A DNA stretch of 64,000 nucleotides from NCBI RefSeq assembly GCF_900129875.1, contig NZ_FQXC01000005.1, forward strand, positions 1 to 64,000, given 5' to 3'. This DNA comes from Marivita hallyeonensis (lineage in GTDB: Bacteria > Pseudomonadota > Alphaproteobacteria > Rhodobacterales > Rhodobacteraceae). The position numbers were made by a program, and so were the translations under genes. Every line of letters starts with the position of its first letter. The first letter of the stretch is position 1. This document shows, one piece after another, positions 49,333 to 62,131 of this stretch. The notes under the pieces are model-generated. The model had not been told where the DNA came from. It saw only the letters and a program-made list of their open reading frames with translations, and made no database searches.

Positions 49333-50082
49333 TTACTCGGCAGGTCTTTTTTCGTACATTTTCACTTCGAACGAATGTCGGAGGTGCATCTTGTAATCCG
49401 TGAACGCGGCAAGGCGTTCTGGATCAATTTCGCGTACAATTGTGAACGTGCCTGCTTCGGTTTCTGTCGGCTGCACCACACGTGCGCTGAATTGCGCCGC
49501 AGTCATCATCGCGTTCGCCGCAGGAAACTCACGAAGGTCAGAGAACAGAGAGAGAAAGCTTTTAGGTGGCACGTCGGTTGACACGACAACGCAATCCGCT
49601 CCTGCACCGTAGGCGCCCGGACTCATAAGCACCAAAACCGCATCGGGCGCCGCAGGGTTCACCAGCAAACGCCGGGTCGGATCGCCGAACAATTCCGAGG
49701 GATCGGCATTCGCAATATACGACTTTGCTGCTTCATGCTCGGACGAGATGGCCCGCTTCATGTTGACCATCGCTTCTATGTTGGCATCACGTCTTGCCAT
49801 GGGGTCGTGAGATACCAAGCGCGTCCAAATGATCTCTTGAATGAGGTGACCCCACTCTGCGTAGTCCGCATTTGTCAGCAAGCGCCAGTCAAGATCGCCA
49901 GCGGCTTCCAGAATGCCAGCCATGCCTTCCTCGAACCGCTCGCACACGAGTACTGCATCAATGTGCGCGCGCGCTTCATCCGTTTTGGAATGCACCGCGG
50001 TCGCAATGGTGCTTGCGCCGACCATCAAAAGACCAGCGACAGCCCTGGCAGCTCCTTCTCGGACTATCGACATTCCCAACAT
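49333..50082 (-). CDS. Hypothetical exported protein between sucD and sucA
   Basis: A 249-residue protein whose first 32 residues look like a signal peptide (positive start, then AVAGLLMVGASTIATAVHS). The mature part is mixed charge, with no recognised domain. GGGAG precedes the ATG at 50082; a second ATG is at 50073. Codon use is less GC-rich than in sucA and sucD. It sits in the suc operon on the same strand and is probably co-transcribed. The role is unknown. Confidence 0.65.
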   Translation of the reverse strand: MLGMSIVREGAARAVAGLLMVGASTIATAVHSKTDEARAHIDAVLVCERFEEGMAGILEAAGDLDWRLLTNADYAEWGHLIQEIIWTRLVSHDPMARRDANIEAMVNMKRAISSEHEAAKSYIANADPSELFGDPTRRLLVNPAAPDAVLVLMSPGAYGAGADCVVVSTDVPPKSFLSLFSDLREFPAANAMMTAAQFSARVVQPTETEAGTFTIVREIDPERLAAFTDYKMHLRHSFEVKMYEKRPAE

Positions 50083-51077: not shown

Positions 51078-51776
51078 TCACCGAGGCCGGTAAGTTGGCC
51101 CCGAACAGGGCAGGAAGACTCCGCTTCTTGGTCCGGTAGTGACTTGCGGCTTGCATTCAATCGCGTGGTTCAATCGCACTGCTGCGCCAGGTGTCTTGGG
51201 AAAGAAGTCACCAATATCGTAGGCGAGGCTGCGCTGCGGGTCGTAGGGCCCGGAAGGCCACGTTTTGTAGGCGGCAACGTAAATGCGGTGTGCATAAGGT
51301 GCCTTGTCTGGGAAGCGTGGCGGCTCTGTAAAGAACCGCCTCCAAGCCCCAGACACGTGGCTGGACAAACCATCTCCAAACTCCGCGTTCGACAATAGCT
51401 GATGGGCTTCCACCCAGATGCTAGCCAGTTGACTTGATTGAGCGGGGGTCATGCCTTCAAGCCCGACATAGCAGCTGCCCGGAAAATATAGGATACGCAC
51501 TGCATCGTCCGGAGACGTGATCCTGAAGCGAGTTACTTGGCGACCACCTCTAACCGTGACACGCTCTTGAGACACTGCAAACCCAGCCCGTCTCATTGCT
51601 TGGCTGACTGTGGTCGGACTGCTTGCATGGGAACATGCACGCGCAGCACGTTGTGCCACAGCAAAACTCTGTGCGTTGGCAGGCATTCGGCTCACTGTCG
51701 AAGTATCGACGGGTGGTATTCCACACCCTGGCAATATCGCAATGCACGCAGCGGCTATGATGGACAAACGAAGCAT
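51078..51776 (-). CDS. Hypothetical lipoprotein between sucC and sucD
   Basis: A 232-residue protein starting MLRLSIIAAACIAILPGCGI, a lipoprotein signal with the lipidated Cys at 18. The mature part has no recognised domain; it is moderately basic with aromatic-rich stretches and two further Cys residues that could pair. Only 9 bases separate it from the sucC stop, so it is almost certainly on the suc transcript, but no strong ribosome site is seen. It probably sits in the periplasmic face of a membrane. Confidence 0.65.
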   Translation of the reverse strand: MLRLSIIAAACIAILPGCGIPPVDTSTVSRMPANAQSFAVAQRAARACSHASSPTTVSQAMRRAGFAVSQERVTVRGGRQVTRFRITSPDDAVRILYFPGSCYVGLEGMTPAQSSQLASIWVEAHQLLSNAEFGDGLSSHVSGAWRRFFTEPPRFPDKAPYAHRIYVAAYKTWPSGPYDPQRSLAYDIGDFFPKTPGAAVRLNHAIECKPQVTTGPRSGVFLPCSGPTYRPR

Positions 51777-51785
51777 TGGAGAGAC

Positions 51786-52979
51786 TTAGCCCTTAACCGC
51801 CTTCACGATCTTCGCGGCACCGTCTTTCAGGTCGTCCGCTGCGATCACGTCCACGTCCGACTCATTGATGATCTTCTTACCGGCTTCCACGTTTGTGCCT
51901 TCGAGGCGCACAACGAGCGGGACTTGCAAACCAACTTCTTTCACCGCGGCCACGACGCCCTCGGCGATGACGTCACAGCGCATGATGCCGCCGAAGATGT
52001 TGACAAGGATGCCTTTGACATTGGGGTCAGAGGTGATGATCTTGAACGCCTCGGTCACCTTTTCCTTGGTCGCGCCGCCGCCCACGTCGAGGAAGTTGGC
52101 AGGCTCGGCCCCGTAGAGCTTGATGATGTCCATCGTCGCCATCGCCAGACCCGCGCCGTTGACCATGCAGCCGATCTCGCCGTCCAGCGCGATGTAGTTG
52201 AGGTCGTACTTGGACGCTTCGAGCTCTTTCGGGTCTTCTTCGGTCTCGTCGCGAAGTTCGGCAATTTCCGGGTGGCGATAGATTGCGTTGCCGTCGAAGC
52301 CCATCTTGGCGTCGAGGCATTTCAGATCGCCCTCATCGGTCACGATGAGCGGGTTGATTTCGAGCATCTCCATGTCTTTTTCGGTGAAGAGCTTGTAGAG
52401 CGTGCCCATCAGTTGAACGCACTGCTTTACCTGCTTGCCTTCGAGGCCGAGGTTGAACGCGATGCGGCGGCCGTGGAACGGCTGGTACCCAGTGGCGGGA
52501 TCGACAGAGAAGCTGAGGATTTTCTCGGGCGTGCTTTCGGCCACTTCCTCAATATCCATGCCGCCTTCGGTTGAGGCGACGAAGGACACGCGGCTGGTCT
52601 GGCGGTCAACGAGAAGCGCGAGGTACATCTCGGTCTCGATGCCCGAGCCGTCTTCGATGTAGATGCGGTTGACCTGCTTACCCGCAGGGCCGGTCTGTTT
52701 GGTGACCAGCGTGCGGCCCAGCATTTTCTTGGCTTCTTCGGCGGCTTCCTCCACCGACTTCGCCAGACGGACCCCACCGGCCTCGCCAGCGGTTTCTTCC
52801 TTGAATGAGCCCTTGCCGCGGCCGCCCGCGTGGATCTGCGCCTTCACCACCCAGAGCGGGCCGTCCATCTCGCCTGCCTTGGTCTTGGCCTCTTCAGCCT
52901 TGAGAACCACGCGGCCATCCGACACCGGAGCGCCGTAGCTGCGTAGCAGGGCTTTTGCCTGATACTCGTGGATGTTCAT
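51786..52979 (-). CDS. sucC: Succinate-CoA ligase, ADP-forming, beta subunit
   Basis: A 397-residue ATP-grasp beta subunit. [19 protein letters not shown] begins the protein, [18 protein letters not shown] is the nucleotide-binding segment, and [18 protein letters not shown] lies in the C-terminal ligase domain. It is first gene of the sucC-sucD-sucA-sucB transcript. A paired GTGATCAC operator lies about 115 bp upstream of the start. Confidence 0.97.
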
Positions 52980-53091
52980 CGGTCAACTGTCCCGTCTTTT
53001 GCTGCGATTTTGGCCGATATACGATTGTATACCGACAGAGATTAAAGGCTTTTTTGACGCAGGGTCGGCATTTGAGCGAAAAACCGACATA

Positions 53092-53122
53092 TGTGATCAC
53101 ACGTGAAAATCGTGTGATCACA
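53092..53122. promoter_or_regulatory. Paired GTGATCAC operator upstream of sucC
   Basis: TGTGATCACACG (53092-53103) and CGTGTGATCACA (53111-53122) form perfect 12-bp arms around seven bases, and each arm is itself centred on a GTGATCAC palindrome. The two palindromes are 21 bp apart, two helical turns. The same arrangement precedes sdhC at 61597-61627. A GntR-family TCA-cycle activator such as AkgR, described in Rhodobacter sphaeroides, is the leading candidate; I have not confirmed its motif. Confidence 0.75.
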
Positions 53123-53229
53123 AACCGGGTGTTGCAGGTGGGATTGATTCGTTGAAGCTGGCCGTTCGGCTTCGAACGTTGCCTGCACCAGGCGGGAATG
53201 ACCAGCGTCCGCCGGTCTACGGGTGAAGC

Positions 53230-53958
53230 CTAGCTGACCTTCTGCAGTCCGATCAGTTCCATCATCTCTTCTGGAGTGATCGCCGGGAAGTCTTCGGAAT
53301 AGCCGAATATGTCGTCGCCCATCCGGTGCAAGGTGTACCCCGCCTTGGAGAGATGCGCGCGGATCTGCGCGTCTTCTTTTTCGTCCTTCCCATTGCTTTC
53401 GATCAGGATTGCCTTGGGTTTGATCTTGGAGAGGGTCGCGCCTTTCAGAACGGCCATCTCGTGGCCTTCCACATCGACGACCAGAAGGTCTGTTGTCTTG
53501 ATCTTTTCGGCCTTGAGGATCGAGGACAGCGTCCGGACCTTGATGTCCGTGCTTTCGATATCGTCATCCTCGGGCGCGGCGACTCCGCTCAAAACAGTCT
53601 CGAGACGGGTCTTGTCCAGGGTGGCACACCCCTTGGCCCATTCAGGATACTTGGTCTCTCCGGTCTTGGAGAGATGGTGGAGTTTCAAGGTGCCTGTCTT
53701 GTCCGACACGCCGCAATTGACGAGCGTGAAATTATTCCGGCCTTTGTACCTTTTGGAGAGTTCGGAGAAATACGTGGGATTGGGTTCGATAAGCACGCCG
53801 CTCCAGTTGCGCGCTTCCGCGATCTTGTAGACGGGATCATCCATCAGGCCATCATTGGCACCGACTTGAACATAGTGCACGGTATCGTCGCCAAGACGTG
53901 AGAGCAAAAAGTCTCTTACCCGGTTGACGACCATTTTGGGACGGACACCAATTAACAT
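53230..53958 (-). CDS. FkbM family methyltransferase
   Basis: A 242-residue S-adenosylmethionine-dependent methyltransferase. VQVGANDGLMDDPVY is the cofactor loop, VLIEPNPTYFSELSKRY is the acidic ribose-binding strand, and DLLVVDVEGHEMAVLKGA is the FkbM-type post-motif. It likely O-methylates a sugar. The ATG at 53958 overlaps the glycosyltransferase stop (TGATG), with AAGGAGG seven bases upstream; GTG at 53961 is less well spaced. Confidence 0.88.
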   Translation of the reverse strand: MLIGVRPKMVVNRVRDFLLSRLGDDTVHYVQVGANDGLMDDPVYKIAEARNWSGVLIEPNPTYFSELSKRYKGRNNFTLVNCGVSDKTGTLKLHHLSKTGETKYPEWAKGCATLDKTRLETVLSGVAAPEDDDIESTDIKVRTLSSILKAEKIKTTDLLVVDVEGHEMAVLKGATLSKIKPKAILIESNGKDEKEDAQIRAHLSKAGYTLHRMGDDIFGYSEDFPAITPEEMMELIGLQKVS

Positions 53959-54794
53959 CACGCAGCCTCCTTTGTGATGGGACCGTTGGCAGGGTTGATG
54001 CCGTGTTTCTCACATAAGCGGCCAAGAAAAGATCTTGGATGCGGGACGCCATCGCTCTTTGCCAAAAGGTTTCTGATCTTTGAGCCGTAGAAGTGTACGG
54101 ACAGTGTTTCTTCCGGAATCGAGATTTTTGCGCGCCACGGCATTTGCAATACACGTGAGATTTCCCCACCGGAGATCGGGTACAGAACGTCTTTCCCGGT
54201 TGTGTGCTTGGCTTCATCATGACGCCAGGCGAAATGCGTGATCGCGAACGGCCCCCAGATTTCCCAAGGTAATTCGCTGACATGCATTGGATTTCCCGCC
54301 TTGCGCCGGGCTTCATATTCGGCGCGGACCGTTTTGCGCACGAAGGGGAAGTCTTCGGGAAGATCGGGATATTGGTGGGATGTGAATTCGAGCAAGCCCG
54401 CAAGCGTTGGCGAGTCTTTCGGCAGACGAAGCACGCCATTGGCGATCACTGTGTTGAAATGATTGCCGAAAAGGTAGTCGACTTCCGGAAAAGGTTTTGT
54501 GCAGTACGCGTCCGTGTCCACCCAGATTTCATCGGTTTTCGACAGGAGATGATAGCGAAACTTGTCCGAGTGTGGACCTGCCTTACCGCTTTGGGCATTC
54601 ACGATGAATTCGGTTGCTGGCAGGATTTCGTTTGCGTCCGCGATCTCAACGCCGTCGGGGACGTTGCCGACCGTGTCATAGACATAGAGCTTGGTCCGGT
54701 GACCTGCATCGACAAAAGATTGCAGGCACAGTTGCTCAAGAAACGTCAGAGGTGCCCCAATCCACAAAGAGGCAATGACAGGACGTTCGCTCAT
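53958..54794 (-). CDS. Glycosyltransferase-like protein with a DXD motif
   Basis: A 278-residue protein. VIASLWIGAPLTFLEQLCLQ begins a GT-A-like fold, DEIWVDTDAYC carries a DXD motif for sugar-nucleotide metal binding (about residues 90-95), and FAITHFAWRHDE and LSVHFYGSKIR are further conserved-looking blocks resembling the Gly_transf_sug group. The ATG at 54794 was chosen; in-frame starts upstream lack support. With the FkbM gene it forms a two-gene unit, probably modifying a surface or secreted glycan. Confidence 0.72.
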   Translation of the reverse strand: MSERPVIASLWIGAPLTFLEQLCLQSFVDAGHRTKLYVYDTVGNVPDGVEIADANEILPATEFIVNAQSGKAGPHSDKFRYHLLSKTDEIWVDTDAYCTKPFPEVDYLFGNHFNTVIANGVLRLPKDSPTLAGLLEFTSHQYPDLPEDFPFVRKTVRAEYEARRKAGNPMHVSELPWEIWGPFAITHFAWRHDEAKHTTGKDVLYPISGGEISRVLQMPWRAKISIPEETLSVHFYGSKIRNLLAKSDGVPHPRSFLGRLCEKHGINPANGPITKEAA

Positions 54795-55064
54795 GCACGA
54801 AACCCCAATTCTACTGCTCGGCTTTTGCCGTCTTTTGGCAGGCACCGTAAGCGTCAGGGATCACGTGTCAATTTTTCGATGTGTTCGGGTAGAACTGCTC
54901 TGATGAGTGGCACATCTTTGCTACGCGCGACGGATCTGCGGAACAGAGGCGCACGCACGCGGGCACGTGCTTTTCTCATGGTCTTGTGTACAGGAAGTTG
55001 AGCGCTTTTGCACGCCGGTGCGGCCCCCAGAGCGTGTCCGAAGGCCGCGTTATTGACGTAGATG

Positions 55065-56931
<1,867 letters not shown>

Positions 56932-56951
56932 GCGGGACATGTTTGTCCGAT

Positions 56952-57266
56952 CTACGCGTCTTCGGACGGTTTCGAAAGCGCCTCTGCCAGTTGTTCGTAG
57001 GATTGACCGCTGGCCGCGAGGCAGGTCAGGCCGCGCGCGTTGGTGATGGTGATCGTCCAGGTGCCGGTTTCGGTTGACGCGAACACCTCGACCACGGTGT
57101 TGTTTTGCGCGAGGCCCACCGATTGCCGCGTCTCTCCGTAGGCGGAGGCGAGGCGTTCGATCACCTGCTCGCGCGGCGCGCAATTGGCTTGTGCATTGGC
57201 AAGCGTCGCGGTCGTCAGAAGCGCGCCGATTGTGAGCAGTGTCATCTTCCAGAAAGTCGTGTGCAT
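56952..57266 (-). CDS. Hypothetical small secreted protein
   Basis: A 104-residue protein with a signal peptide (MHTTFWKMTLLTIGALLTTA, cleavage near ANAQA). The 75-residue mature part has two Cys (NCAPRE and GLTCLAA) that may form a disulfide. No domain was recognised. It is likely periplasmic. It is divergent from mcl2 with about 200 bp between the starts. Confidence 0.72.
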   Translation of the reverse strand: MHTTFWKMTLLTIGALLTTATLANAQANCAPREQVIERLASAYGETRQSVGLAQNNTVVEVFASTETGTWTITITNARGLTCLAASGQSYEQLAEALSKPSEDA

Positions 57267-57462
57267 GGCCGTCCCCCGATATGGCTGAATGTGGCGGGAA
57301 GCGTCCGTATGGGGGCCTTACATTTGGTTAACGGTGCGTTCGGGAGCGGGGATCGAGTGACTTTTTTCTGCGCTGCGGCACATCGGCGCTTGCAGTTTTT
57401 GGAAAAGAATGTAGCTGTCTGGCGCAAGATTATTTCGCGTGACGCCGATCAGGAGACCCGAC

Positions 57463-58320
57463 ATGGACATGCGCAGCCGCCCTTACCGCTCTGTTCTTTA
57501 TATCCCGGGGTCAAAAGATCGCGCGTTGGAAAAGGCGCGGTCGCTGCCGGTGGACGCGATCATCTTCGATTTGGAGGACGCCGTCGCGGTGGACGAAAAG
57601 CCTGCCGCGCGGGCAACGCTGACAGAGGCCTTGGCGAGCGGCGGCTATGGTCCACGGGTGAAGATCGTGCGGATCAATGGGCTAGATACCGAATGGGGCC
57701 GCGCAGATGCGGAGGCGGTGCGGAACATGGACTGCGACGCGGTGCTGTTGCCGAAAGTCGAAAGCGCGGCGCAGCTTGATGCACTGGCCGAGATCACCGG
57801 AGACCTACCGATCTGGGCGATGATGGAGACGCCGCGCGGGATGCTGAATGCCGCAGAGATCGCGGCGCATCCGAAACTGGCGGGCATGGTCATGGGGACC
57901 AATGATCTGGCCAAGGAGTTGCAATCGCGGTTCCGGCCGGACCGGTTGCCTATGCTGACGTCGTTGTCGCTGTGCCTCTTGGCGGCGAAGGCTGAGGGGT
58001 TGGTGATCGTCGATGGCGTTTACAACGCGTTCAAGGATGACGAGGGGCTCAAAGCCGAATGCGCGCAGGGGCGTGACATGGGGTTCGATGGCAAGACGTT
58101 GATCCATCCGGCGCAGGTGGAGATTGCGAATACGGCCTTTGCGCCGGCGCCCGAGGAGATCGACCTGGCCCGCCGACAAATCGCGGCGTTCGAAGAGGCC
58201 GAGGCGGCTGGGCAGGGGGTCGCGGTGGTCGATGGCAAGATCGTCGAAAACCTTCACGTTGCCACTGCGCGCGAAATACTGGCAAAGTCCGAGGCGATTG
58301 AAGCAATTACTGCGGGATAA
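57463..58320 (+). CDS. mcl2: CoA ester lyase family protein, probable (3S)-malyl-CoA thioesterase
   Basis: A 285-residue HpcH/HpaI-type (CitE-like) protein: RSVLYIPGSKDRALEKA, IFDLEDAVAVDEK with the Mg-binding acids, WAMMETPRGMLNA, and GFDGKTLIHPAQVE. The ATG at 57463 has AGGAG seven bases upstream. In Rhodobacter sphaeroides a protein of this family and size near the sdh genes is the malyl-CoA thioesterase Mcl2, and the order here matches. It would release malate in the ethylmalonyl-CoA pathway. A citrate lyase-like lyase activity cannot be excluded from motifs alone. Confidence 0.82.
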   Translation: MDMRSRPYRSVLYIPGSKDRALEKARSLPVDAIIFDLEDAVAVDEKPAARATLTEALASGGYGPRVKIVRINGLDTEWGRADAEAVRNMDCDAVLLPKVESAAQLDALAEITGDLPIWAMMETPRGMLNAAEIAAHPKLAGMVMGTNDLAKELQSRFRPDRLPMLTSLSLCLLAAKAEGLVIVDGVYNAFKDDEGLKAECAQGRDMGFDGKTLIHPAQVEIANTAFAPAPEEIDLARRQIAAFEEAEAAGQGVAVVDGKIVENLHVATAREILAKSEAIEAITAG

Positions 58321-58323
58321 GCC

Positions 58324-58875
58324 ATGTTCACCCTTCTGACACTCGGTCTTGCGCTGTGGATACTGGCGCATGTCTTCAAACGCGTCGCCCCGGAACGGCG
58401 CGCGGCGATGGGCGACAAGGGCAAAGGTATCGTTGCGGTTCTCCTATTCATCAGCCTTGGCCTGATGATCTGGGGCTATCGCGGGGCGGACTTCATCCCT
58501 GTCTGGTCCCCGCCGAGCTTTATGGTGCACATCAACAACCTTCTGATGCTTGTCGCGGTGTTCGTCTTCGGTATGAGCGCAACAACCGGGCGTTTGCGCG
58601 GGAAAATGCGGCATCCGCAACTGACCGCCGTCAAGATCTGGGCAGTGGCACATTTGCTGGTGAACGGCGATCTGGCGGCGATTATCCTTTTTGGGGGCAT
58701 GCTGATCTGGGCGGTGCTCGAGGTGATCCTGATCAATCGGGCTGAGCCGGTGTGGGATCGGCCCGAACCGGGTGAGGCGAAGAAGGATGTGGTTCTCGTG
58801 ATCATCACACTCGTCGCTTATGGCGTGATGACAGGTCTTCACGCATGGCTGGGCGTTTGGCCGTTTCCGGGGTGA
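58324..58875 (+). CDS. NnrU family membrane protein
   Basis: A 183-residue protein with about five membrane helices and NnrU-type segments: the early LALWILAHVFKRVAPERRA and VKIWAVAHLLVNGDLAAIILFGGMLIWA. NnrU was named in denitrification clusters, but members are widespread and the function is unclear. It starts three bases after the mcl2 stop and ends three bases before the DUF1737 gene. Confidence 0.85.
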   Translation: MFTLLTLGLALWILAHVFKRVAPERRAAMGDKGKGIVAVLLFISLGLMIWGYRGADFIPVWSPPSFMVHINNLLMLVAVFVFGMSATTGRLRGKMRHPQLTAVKIWAVAHLLVNGDLAAIILFGGMLIWAVLEVILINRAEPVWDRPEPGEAKKDVVLVIITLVAYGVMTGLHAWLGVWPFPG

Positions 58876-58878
58876 GCT

Positions 58879-59082
58879 ATGAAAATCTACCGATTTCTGA
58901 CCGAGGATGACACATCGGCTTTTTGCCACAAGGTGTCGGATGCATTGAGCAAAGGCTGGGAGCTGTACGGCACACCGACCTACGCGTTCGATCAGGCCAA
59001 TGGCGTGATGCGCTGCGGGCAGGCGGTGACCAAAGAGATCGACAAACCCTATAGCCCCGACATGACGCTTGGACAGGAGTGA
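58879..59082 (+). CDS. DUF1737 domain protein
   Basis: A 67-residue cytoplasmic protein with the DUF1737 pattern: MKIYRFLTEDDTSAFCHKVS, then LSKGWELYGTPTYAFD. The function of the family is unknown. It lies between nnrU-like and mch with tight spacing, an order also remembered from Rhodobacter relatives. Confidence 0.82.
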   Translation: MKIYRFLTEDDTSAFCHKVSDALSKGWELYGTPTYAFDQANGVMRCGQAVTKEIDKPYSPDMTLGQE

Positions 59083-59123
59083 CCCCGATGAACGTGCAAA
59101 GCGAAATCACCAAGGAACGACCG

Positions 59124-60155
59124 ATGTCCAAAACGAATGCGGGTCGCTTTTTCGAGGATTATTCGGTGGGTCAGGTGATCCGTCACGCGGTGCCGCGGAC
59201 GGTGTCGGGCGGTGAGCGGGCGCTGTACCACGCGCTTTATCCTGCGCGACATGCGCTTTATTCGTCCGACTTTTTTGCGCAGTCCTGCGGTTTACCGTCG
59301 TCGCCGATCGACGACTTGGCGGCGTTTCATGTGGTGTTCGGCAAAACGGTGCCGGATGTGTCTTTGAACGCGGTTGCGAACCTTGGGTACGCCGAGGGGC
59401 GCTGGCTTGCCCCGGTCTATCCGGGTGACACGCTGCGGTCTGAATCCGAGGTGATCGGGCTCAAGCAGAACTCGAACGGCAAGACCGGGGTCGTCTGGGT
59501 CCGCACGCGCGGGATCAATCAGAACGACACGGTCGTCATGGAATATGTGCGCTGGGTGATGGTGCGGAAGCGGGATGTCGATGCGCCCGCGCCCGAAACG
59601 GTGGTGCCTGAGTTGAGCAAGGTGGTGCCGGTCGAGGATCTGGTGATCCCGAAGGGTCTGGATTTCACGGACTACGATTTCGAGTTGGCGGGCGAACCAC
59701 ACCGGTGGGGCGACTACACGGTGGGCGAGACCATTGACCATGTGGACGGTGTGACCATCGAGGAAGCCGAGCACATGATGGCGACGCGGCTCTGGCAGAA
59801 CACGGCGAAGGTGCATTTCGATGCGACGTTCCGGCCCGATGGGCAGCGGCTGATCTATGGCGGGCACGTCATTTCGATGGCGCGGGCGCTGTCGTTCAAC
59901 GGTTTGGCGAATGCGCAGATGATCGTGGGCCTGAACGGTGGCGCGCATGCGAATCCGTGCTTCAGTGGCGACACCGTGCGCGCGTGGTCCGAGGTGCTCG
60001 ACAAGGCCGAGACCGACATGTCGGGGGTTGGCGCGGTGCGGTTGCGGCTTGTGGCGACCAAGGCGGCGGGTTCGTTCGAACTTAAGGGAGAGGACGGCAA
60101 GTACCTGCCGCATGTCCTTCTTGATCTGGACTACTGGGCGCTGATGCCGACATGA
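59124..60155 (+). CDS. mch: Mesaconyl-CoA hydratase (MaoC-type double hot-dog)
   Basis: A 343-residue protein with two MaoC-like hot-dog halves. GRFFEDYSVGQVIRHAVPRT starts the first, and GDYTVGETIDHVDGVTIEEAEHM starts the second. The ATG at 59124 has AAGGA seven bases upstream; the earlier in-frame start at 59079 would overlap the previous gene and lacks support. Length and position beside mcl2 and sdh match the Rhodobacter mesaconyl-CoA hydratase, which interconverts mesaconyl-CoA and beta-methylmalyl-CoA. Confidence 0.87.
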   Translation: MSKTNAGRFFEDYSVGQVIRHAVPRTVSGGERALYHALYPARHALYSSDFFAQSCGLPSSPIDDLAAFHVVFGKTVPDVSLNAVANLGYAEGRWLAPVYPGDTLRSESEVIGLKQNSNGKTGVVWVRTRGINQNDTVVMEYVRWVMVRKRDVDAPAPETVVPELSKVVPVEDLVIPKGLDFTDYDFELAGEPHRWGDYTVGETIDHVDGVTIEEAEHMMATRLWQNTAKVHFDATFRPDGQRLIYGGHVISMARALSFNGLANAQMIVGLNGGAHANPCFSGDTVRAWSEVLDKAETDMSGVGAVRLRLVATKAAGSFELKGEDGKYLPHVLLDLDYWALMPT

Positions 60156-60874
60156 GGTCGGCGCTTGGACTGACGCTGGCCCTCGCCGCGACGCCTCTGT
60201 GTGCGGATGAGGCGGAGGATGCGTTTGTCGAAGCGAATATTCTTGGCATCTTTTACCATGAGCTTGGGCACGCCCTGATCGACGTGCTTCAGATGCCGGT
60301 CTTCGGGCAGGAGGAAGACGCGGCGGATGTGGCGTCGATCCTTTTGATTGACCAGTTCTTTGAGCCGGAAGCGGCCTTGCAGATGGCGTATGACGTCTCG
60401 GACGGGTTCTGGGCCGAGGCGGAGGTCAACCACGACGATCCGGTGCCGTATTGGGACGTGCACGGGCCGGATGAGCAGCGTTTCTACAACACGGTTTGCT
60501 TGTTCTACGGCGGCGACCCGGAGACGCGGGACGTGTTCGCCGAGGACATGGGGCTTCCGGAAGATCGTGCGGAGTATTGTCCGGAGGAGTATGACCTCGC
60601 GCTGGACAGTTGGGGCGCGGTGTTCGACGACCTGACGGGAGACGGCGTGCCGATGGCCTTTGTGACGGAAGGCCCCGGGTCAATCACGTCGGACGTCATC
60701 GGTGCCGAGGTTGCGGCGCTGAATGAGGATTTCGCGTTTCCGTCGGAAATCCTGGTGCGGGTTGAACCTTGTGGTGAGGCCAACGCGTTTTACGATCCGT
60801 CAGATCAGTCGATCATCATGTGCCAGGAGTTCGAAGATCACCTGCGCGACCTGTTTACGGTTCTGGGCAACTGA
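60152..60874 (+). CDS. DUF4344 putative zinc metallopeptidase, exported
   Basis: A 240-residue protein. The signal peptide (MRSALGLTLALAATPLCADE) is followed at once by GIFYHELGHALIDVLQMPVFG, with an HExxH zinc motif (His36, Glu37, His40). GQEEDAADVASI is typical of DUF4344 and may hold the third ligand. It is probably a periplasmic metallopeptidase of unknown target. It overlaps mch by 4 bp (ATGA). Confidence 0.8.
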   Translation: MRSALGLTLALAATPLCADEAEDAFVEANILGIFYHELGHALIDVLQMPVFGQEEDAADVASILLIDQFFEPEAALQMAYDVSDGFWAEAEVNHDDPVPYWDVHGPDEQRFYNTVCLFYGGDPETRDVFAEDMGLPEDRAEYCPEEYDLALDSWGAVFDDLTGDGVPMAFVTEGPGSITSDVIGAEVAALNEDFAFPSEILVRVEPCGEANAFYDPSDQSIIMCQEFEDHLRDLFTVLGN

Positions 60875-60920
60875 CACGAATGTGAGAGACGCGGCGCGTG
60901 GCGGCGTGCAACATCGCAGG

Positions 60921-61589
60921 ATGATGCTGCGCGGTATTCTTCCGGCCTTGTCTGCCCTTCTGCCGACCGCAGGGTGGGCGTGTGACCTCGCACTGGTGCT
61001 GGCAGTGGACGTTTCCGGTTCGGTGGACAGTTGGGAATACCGGTTGCAGCGCGACGGTATGGCAGCGGCTTTGCGGGATCCGGCGGTATCGGAAGCGCTT
61101 GTTGCCGCGCGGGCCGAGGTGATGGTGCTGCAGTGGACGGGATCAGGGCGCCAGAAGGTGACGGTGCCGTGGCGGACGATCGACAGCTTTGAGGGTCTGG
61201 ACGCCTTTGCTGATGAAGTGGCGGCTGACCCGCGCATCTGGCGCAACTTCTCGACGGCGATTGGGGAGGCGCTTGAAAAGTCCATCGCGCAGTTCGAAAA
61301 CGTGCCGCACTGCAAACGACGGGTCATCGATGTGTCGGGGGACGGCACGTCGAACGAAGGTGTGGAACCGTCCCGGTTGCGCGCGGCATTGCGCGCCGAG
61401 AGTATCACGGTGAATGCGATCGTCATCGAAAGCGCGGAGGAGGACCTGACGGGGTATTTCTGGGAAAACGTTATCTACGGCGACGGGGCTTTCGTTGTGA
61501 CTGCGTCGGATTTCAAAGAGTATCCCAAACGGATCCGGCAAAAGCTGCGCCGGGAAACTACCAAACAAACCGCAGAGTTGCGCCGATAG
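60921..61589 (+). CDS. DUF1194 von Willebrand factor A-like exported protein
   Basis: A 222-residue protein. A short signal peptide (MMLRGILPALSALLPTAGWA) precedes CDLALVLAVDVSGSVDSWEY, which contains the DxSxS metal-ion-dependent adhesion motif. CKRRVIDVSGDGTSNEG completes the vWA-like fold of DUF1194. It is likely periplasmic and binds an unknown partner. The ribosome site is weak, so the ATG at 60921 or the one at 60924 may be used. It lies 46 bp after the DUF4344 gene. Confidence 0.8.
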   Translation: MMLRGILPALSALLPTAGWACDLALVLAVDVSGSVDSWEYRLQRDGMAAALRDPAVSEALVAARAEVMVLQWTGSGRQKVTVPWRTIDSFEGLDAFADEVAADPRIWRNFSTAIGEALEKSIAQFENVPHCKRRVIDVSGDGTSNEGVEPSRLRAALRAESITVNAIVIESAEEDLTGYFWENVIYGDGAFVVTASDFKEYPKRIRQKLRRETTKQTAELRR

Positions 61590-61596
61590 TCGCAAA

Positions 61597-61627
61597 TGTG
61601 ATCACGCATTTTGCGCGTGTGATCACG
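61597..61627. promoter_or_regulatory. Paired GTGATCAC operator upstream of sdhC
   Basis: Palindromes GTGATCAC at 61598-61605 and 61619-61626 are 21 bp apart, with flanking GC/GC pairing that extends the symmetry. Spacing, core and distance to the first gene (about 118 bp to sdhC) match the site before sucC at 53092-53122. This marks sdh and suc as targets of the same regulator. Confidence 0.75.
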
Positions 61628-61744
61628 AGTTCCCGAAAATCTGTCGTGTTGCGCCAAAAAACCGCGCCTCTGCGCGGTCGTGTCCCGTGACTCGGGTCAC
61701 AAAACCAATACAAAGACGGTCAGGAACCGAAAAGGACTCAGACC

Positions 61745-62131
61745 ATGGCTGACGTCAATCGGGGGAACCGCCCCCTGTCACCGCACCTGCAGGTGTATCG
61801 CCCACAGCTCAACTCTGTCACATCCATTCTGACACGTATCACCGGGAACGCGCTGATCGTCGCGGCCCTGATGATTGTCTGGTGGCTGCTGGCCGCGTCT
61901 ACGGGTGAAGACTATTTCGCCGTTGCGAACGGGTTTGTCACAAGCTGGTTCGGTGATCTGGTGATGTTCCTGTCGCTTTGGGCGCTCTGGTATCACACGC
62001 TGGCGGGGATCCGGCACCTGATCTGGGACGAGGCGAAGATGCTTGAACTGGAGAAGGCCGAGCCGCTGGGCTGGGCCGTGGTGATCGGGTCAGTTGTCCT
62101 GACCGTTTTCTCTGTCGTTGTGCTTTGGTGA
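61745..62131 (+). CDS. sdhC: Succinate dehydrogenase, cytochrome b556 subunit
   Basis: A 128-residue, three-helix membrane anchor. PLSPHLQVYRPQLNSVTSIL is the conserved N-terminal quinone-site segment, and WYHTLAGIRHLIWDEAK contains the heme-ligand His. AAGGA precedes the ATG. It anchors SdhAB and binds heme b with SdhD. First gene of sdhCDA(B). Confidence 0.95.
   Translation: MADVNRGNRPLSPHLQVYRPQLNSVTSILTRITGNALIVAALMIVWWLLAASTGEDYFAVANGFVTSWFGDLVMFLSLWALWYHTLAGIRHLIWDEAKMLELEKAEPLGWAVVIGSVVLTVFSVVVLW

Follow-up and report, generated by a model that had tools for sequence, protein, structure and literature searches.

Two identical pairs of short palindromes stand upstream of sucC and sdhC in a stretch of 64,000 nucleotides from the alphaproteobacterium Marivita hallyeonensis (contig NZ_FQXC01000005.1, positions 1 to 64,000; hereafter the window), which raises the question of which protein would read them and to what effect. 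Our answer, which we consider highly probable, is that they are two-site operators of an ortholog of AkgR, a GntR/FCD protein, from which the suc-odh and sdh operons of the tricarboxylic acid (TCA) cycle would be activated from upstream, and that a single site would allow the same protein to repress its own gene, akgR. The motif, GTGATCAC, is a perfect 8-base palindrome, and four copies of it form the two pairs in the following arrangement:

53093 to 53100, unstranded: sucC pair, promoter-proximal copy of GTGATCAC, kept in relatives
53114 to 53121, unstranded: sucC pair, distal copy of GTGATCAC
61598 to 61605, unstranded: sdhC pair, distal copy of GTGATCAC
61619 to 61626, unstranded: sdhC pair, promoter-proximal copy of GTGATCAC
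51786 to 52979, minus strand: sucC, first gene of a putative regulated operon (Pfam ATP-grasp_2, Ligase_CoA)
61745 to 62131, plus strand: sdhC, first gene of a putative regulated operon (Pfam Sdh_cyt)

In each pair the sites are separated by a 13-bp gap (bp, base pairs), or 21 bp from start to start, which corresponds to two helical turns, and the two pairs lie 8.5 kilobases (kb) apart. The original prediction, made from the window alone, had placed 21-bp-spaced pairs at 53092-53122 and 61597-61627, which are the GTGATCAC pairs plus one flanking base on each side. Its distance of 115-118 bp to the first gene holds for sdhC (118 bp from the pair end to the ATG) but not for sucC (113 bp). The window contains seven copies of GTGATCAC, compared to a mean of 1.27 after shuffling, and none of 100 shuffles reaches seven. 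The three unpaired copies (9423, 16034 and 43003) all fall within long open reading frames (ORFs), single and intragenic as had been described. Random scatter of the pair through the genome had been named as an outcome that would speak against a regulatory role; across the 4,189,955-base (4.19-Mb) genome, no exact pair was found beyond sucC and sdhC, with none for the reversed-pattern control either. Degenerate pairs with up to two mismatches occur in eight other places, all with two mismatches and none with one. The wider pattern TGTGATCACR is found 17 times genome-wide, comprising the four window operators, one site at akgR and 12 single sites, which were considered as regulon members and rejected because all of them lie inside ORFs (one, C12:9422, in a window ORF).

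The scan of related Rhodobacteraceae that had been proposed confirms that the pair is a family trait. The sample of 246 family genomes, with one genome per genus as tabulated, contains 369 pairs of 21 bp, spread over 212 of the genomes, and the reversed pattern is absent from every genome. A 20-bp form accounts for another 46 pairs in 43 genomes and seems to substitute for a missing 21-bp pair, since 41 of these 43 have fewer than two pairs of 21 bp. Taken together, one form or the other occurs in 224 of the 246 genomes, and exactly two pairs are present in 179. Other gaps stay at background, with 19 cases across the twelve lengths from 0 to 11 bp; for a 14-bp gap, at least three cases occur among the matches listed, a count that leaves out one of nine places in genome G233. 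In a class-wide draw of 289 alphaproteobacterial genomes, the pair is present in all five family members and in two of the 284 others, neither of which has sucC or sdhC within 500 bp of the pair. The core of the inter-site gap is A+T-rich (74% over 56 pairs, compared to 51% for the next 100 bp downstream), which could ease bending. Triple arrays of GTGATCAC in 21-bp steps are present in G122 (before sucC, L352:1501-1550) and, in similar form, in G170.

A tally of 120 distinct exact pairs, in loci as listed and not randomly drawn, gives 58 before sucC, 58 before sdhC and four before neither. Two of the four exceptions are non-family pairs. A third is found in G157, where odhA directly follows mdh and the pair precedes odhA (136 bp) instead of sucC (L073:1501-1529). 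The last is a third exact pair in G037 (L069:1501-1529); a gene for a class II fumarase (TIGR00979, 729 bits), a possible further TCA target, follows it at about 124 bp. Separately, G243, which has another pair on its contig C5, carries an exact pair about 165 bp before a PotF-like gene (L356:1501-1529).

The original prediction named AkgR as the likely protein, and both published and comparative data agree. In the accessible part of PMC4344238, RSP_0981 of Rhodobacter sphaeroides is the predicted regulator of sucCD, odh and sdh, and accessible passages of PMC6365646 identify GTGATCAC among AkgR binding sites and call AkgR an activator. The M. hallyeonensis candidate lies outside the window at C9:275470-276120, on another contig than suc and sdh. 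It encodes a protein with a GntR helix-turn-helix and an FCD domain (Pfam PF00392, PF07729), and a single TGTGATCACA stands at C9:275453, just upstream of its ATG. With relatives taken as the best listed match per genome, strong relatives of this protein (best E ≤6.5e-77; the next best genome reaches 1.1e-46) occur in 135 of 150 family genomes. Of the 135 genomes with akgR, 132 have a pair in the 20-bp or 21-bp form, compared to two of the 15 without (Fisher 3e-14, uncorrected for kinship; the comparison covers the C9 gene alone). Thirteen genomes lack both gene and pair; a sucC locus was obtained from 12 of them, and two sites within 300 bp upstream are seen in none of these loci. G100 and G016, both without akgR and pair, each have one copy of GTGATCAC with one mismatch upstream of sucC. 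When mapped on a 34-row tree of SucC, this absence requires six changes (6-7 in bootstrap replicates), two of them forced by well-supported branches.

The link to RSP_0981 runs through genome G046. Two binding motifs that the accessible part of PMC4344238 gives for chromosome 1 of R. sphaeroides are present on its contig C4, and as both fall within the published intervals, G046 was taken as R. sphaeroides and its gene as RSP_0981. A tblastn search with the C9 protein over 24.5 kb of G046 gives as the best match there a relative with 74% identity, 0.75 kb past sdhB, which agrees with the original prediction's placing of akgR near sdh in R. sphaeroides. Like M. hallyeonensis, G046 carries 21-bp pairs before sucC and sdhC. 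The C9 gene is thus presumed orthologous to that of AkgR, the identity of G046 being inferred from coordinates. Among the best 80 of 508 named loci, the closest to the G046 protein is that of Cereibacter ovatus (94%), and R. sphaeroides itself is absent from these 80.

The site in front of akgR is positioned differently. The upstream stretch was read for 119 of the 135 strong relatives, and 85 of these have GTGATCAC 16-79 bp before the matched akgR start. In 68 of the 85, the distance from the first base of a TTGAC to that of the palindrome is exactly 18 bp, which puts the second half of the palindrome where a -10 element would be expected. A site over the -10 is a repressor position, and autorepression is therefore predicted. 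Named akgR loci, a biased set consisting of the best 80 of 508 matches to a Cereibacter-like query and including some short contigs, have an own site in 32 cases (e.g., Ruegeria, Roseobacter, Sulfitobacter, Rhodovulum, R. capsulatus) and none in 48 (e.g., Cereibacter, Tabrizicola, Gemmobacter, Pseudorhodobacter). A tie between site loss and linkage of akgR to suc or sdh was dropped for want of a clear trend in the same 80 loci (linked: 12 with and 21 without a site; unlinked: 20 and 27). Autorepression would thus be common in the family and missing in the R. sphaeroides-like genome, as judged from site position.

At suc and sdh, by contrast with akgR, the pairs lie well upstream of the putative promoters, which in the window are:

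53017 to 53047, minus strand: candidate sucC promoter, CTTTAA 53047-53042 and GTATAT 53022-53017, hexamers chosen by eye
61687 to 61714, plus strand: candidate sdhC promoter, GTGACT 61687-61692, 16 bp, TACAAA 61709-61714, beginning 61 bp after the pair

In relatives, a promoter-like block was found with an iterated matrix, seeded with a motif noticed in the same sequences. At sdhC this block (GTGAC, then TA..AA) scored in 52 of 58 regions; its start is 58-61 bp from the pair in 42 of them, with the others at 70-72 (four), 79-82 (five) and 93 bp (one). At sucC it scored in 47 of 58 regions, 42 of which have it at 44-46 bp (the others at 35, 35, 57, 68 and 96 bp); the candidate sucC promoter of the window is about one to two bases off this position. 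From these blocks we estimate that the proximal site would lie at about -88 for sucC and -98 for sdhC, with the distal site 21 bp further up; transcription would then start about 83 bp (sucC) and 93 bp (sdhC) beyond the pair end. Such distances, together with the spacing, are consistent with the original view that the location fits an activator.

Two other elements were noticed in the same region. The sequence TGCGCCAAAAAACCGCG lies at window 61650-61666, between the sdhC pair and promoter. Among the 58 sdhC regions of relatives, 13 contain GCGCCAAA, compared to a shuffled mean of 0.16; this element is possibly the site of a second regulator. A putative CceR-like element between pair and promoter was rejected, as TTAGCGC/GCGCTAA shows a weak excess only: it is present in five of 58 regions at sucC (0.65 on average after shuffling) and in eight of 58 at sdhC (0.89).

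Several observations weigh against the interpretation as AkgR operators on upstream-activated promoters. Pairs without a strong akgR relative occur in G018 and G105, which are drafts of 210 and 320 contigs, and akgR without an exact pair occurs in G035, G056 and G139, of which G035 has two one-mismatch pairs. The own site is missing in 34 of 119 akgR genes, including that of G046, which lacks both an exact and a one-mismatch copy, so autorepression is not general. No promoter block scored in six of 58 sdhC and 11 of 58 sucC regions. The phase coherence of the sdhC block (R 0.86, compared to 0.17 for the pair-to-ATG distance, which ranges from 80 to 191 bp and has no 10.5-bp period) reflects mostly the main peak and is near-equal for periods of 10-11.5 bp, and the outliers therefore form the real test of phase. 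These do support the phase, with an R of 0.75 for the sdhC outliers. Within 2 bp of a whole turn are 13 of 14 outliers (chance 0.4 each), or 10 of 11 distinct positions. The sucC outlier at 96 is off the whole turn, just outside the 2 bp, and its inclusion gives 13 of 15 (about 3e-4, hand calculation). In L060, a GTGAC at 49 fits a whole turn but falls below block scoring. We read the shifts in operator-promoter distance by about whole helical turns as selection for a helix face, which would imply contact with RNA polymerase.

The mechanism we propose would start with one AkgR dimer on each palindrome. Two dimers would then sit side by side on the same helix face, at roughly -85 to -120 relative to the transcription start, where they may bind cooperatively and assist RNA polymerase in transcribing the suc-odh and sdh operons (class I activation). 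At akgR, the single site over the -10 would let AkgR repress its own gene. Two upstream sites would accordingly mean activation and one site on the core promoter repression. Underlying this model are family-wide conservation, spacing restricted to 20 or 21 bp, co-occurrence with akgR and the preferred helical phase of the promoter-like block behind the pair, all drawn from sequence comparison; both the cooperative binding and the activation by AkgR are inferred from them. With moderate confidence, we go one step further and suggest that the number and position of the sites form a code read by AkgR, in which two phased upstream sites activate TCA operons and one site 18 bp behind TTGAC represses akgR, a feedback that would be common but missing in the Cereibacter/Tabrizicola-like lineage. 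As this is the lineage in which AkgR was characterised, the standard model organism would lack half of the circuit.

The alternative that survives best, although unlikely, is that AkgR binds the pairs but loops the DNA between both operons, or represses instead of activating. The two pairs are a few kb apart in many genomes among the matches listed, as looping would suggest, and GntR proteins are often repressors. Nonetheless, the pairs are about 89 kb apart in G086 and about 190 kb apart in G221, for which reason looping was set aside as a requirement. Furthermore, the pair lies upstream of the promoter block with its phase kept, which counts against this alternative, and AkgR is called an activator in the accessible passages of PMC6365646.

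Slightly less probable still is a different regulator on the pairs, either the GntR protein encoded near sdh or one of 14 other FCD proteins. This genome has 16 FCD matches, one of them the window's neighbour at C12:75963, and the original prediction had taken the local GntR protein as the one to test. That protein (C12, about 75.7 kb) was rejected as AkgR, being 30% identical to the AkgR ortholog, compared to 74% between the C9 protein and its G046 relative. Compared with the 24.5-kb stretch of G046, it gives no match at E 1e-15 and thus does not qualify as an ortholog of the G046 gene. Neither does any GTGATCAC occur near its gene in 20 kb, the sdhC pair excepted. The protein in question would instead be the one on C9.

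Operators of the CRP/FNR type are very improbable. TGTGA and TCACA are CRP half-sites, spaced in CRP/FNR operators as TGTGA-N6-TCACA, and the halves of our motif are identical to them, but in none of the four sites are they parted by the 6-bp spacer, the two halves being directly adjoined, and the pair goes with akgR, which itself is preceded by a single copy. Least credible of all is a repeat that acts as RNA or a by-product of base composition: the palindromes could pair together in RNA, but the pair would be outside that transcript, given its position upstream of the promoter block, and the reversed-pattern controls give zero in all 246 genomes of the family sample.

The AkgR reading thus builds on a system of which regulator, motif and targets are already known, and the pairs in the window are most likely the AkgR operator on known targets. 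The primary paper on AkgR is that of Imam et al. 2015 (mBio 6:e02461-14). What the present analysis would add is the strict geometry, promoter distances that differ by about whole turns, the finding that pair and akgR are absent together, and a predicted autorepression missing in the model species. The extent to which the paired geometry is new is uncertain: no description of it, of operator-promoter distances varying by about whole turns, or of akgR autorepression was found in the accessible literature, which consisted of passages and not whole papers, and the accessible passages of PMC4419725, PMC11323563, PMC5507952, PMC7471390, PMC5343134 and PMC5359404 contain nothing on pairs or autoregulation.

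With the AkgR (RSP_0981) regulon of R. sphaeroides, as far as the accessible passages describe it, M. hallyeonensis shares the motif GTGATCAC, the GntR/FCD protein and the targets suc, odh and sdh, and with G046 also the 21-bp pairs. They differ in that akgR is here on a contig apart from suc and sdh with a single site upstream, whereas the G046 gene adjoins sdhB and has no such site. PS417_07240 of Pseudomonas simiae is likewise GntR-like, 32% identical to AkgR and proposed to bind GTGATCAC, but belongs to a deoxyribonate pathway cluster, upstream of which there is one palindrome only, from -47 to -40 (accessible passages of PMC6365646). The closest solved chain to a profile of AkgR relatives is Escherichia coli McbR (PDB 4p9f; E 7.4e-24), a distant relative by this profile match.

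The neighbourhood of suc in the window also holds genes of its own. Between mdh and sucC (53230-54845) lie an ORF for an FkbM-type methyltransferase and an ORF without Pfam domain; the mdh and sucC genes lie near each other in G046 and in several relatives. Other Pfam-less ORFs are found between sucC and sucD (51078-51776) and between sucD and odhA (49333-50082), and sucC and sucD are nearly adjacent in G046.

For the family, these results describe an operator that spans most sampled genera of a large group, marine roseobacters included, and that appears tied to one TCA-cycle regulator. Promoters whose operator distances are shifted by about whole turns may serve as natural material on activation by GntR/FCD proteins, and the predicted autorepression is open to direct test in Ruegeria- or Sulfitobacter-type strains.

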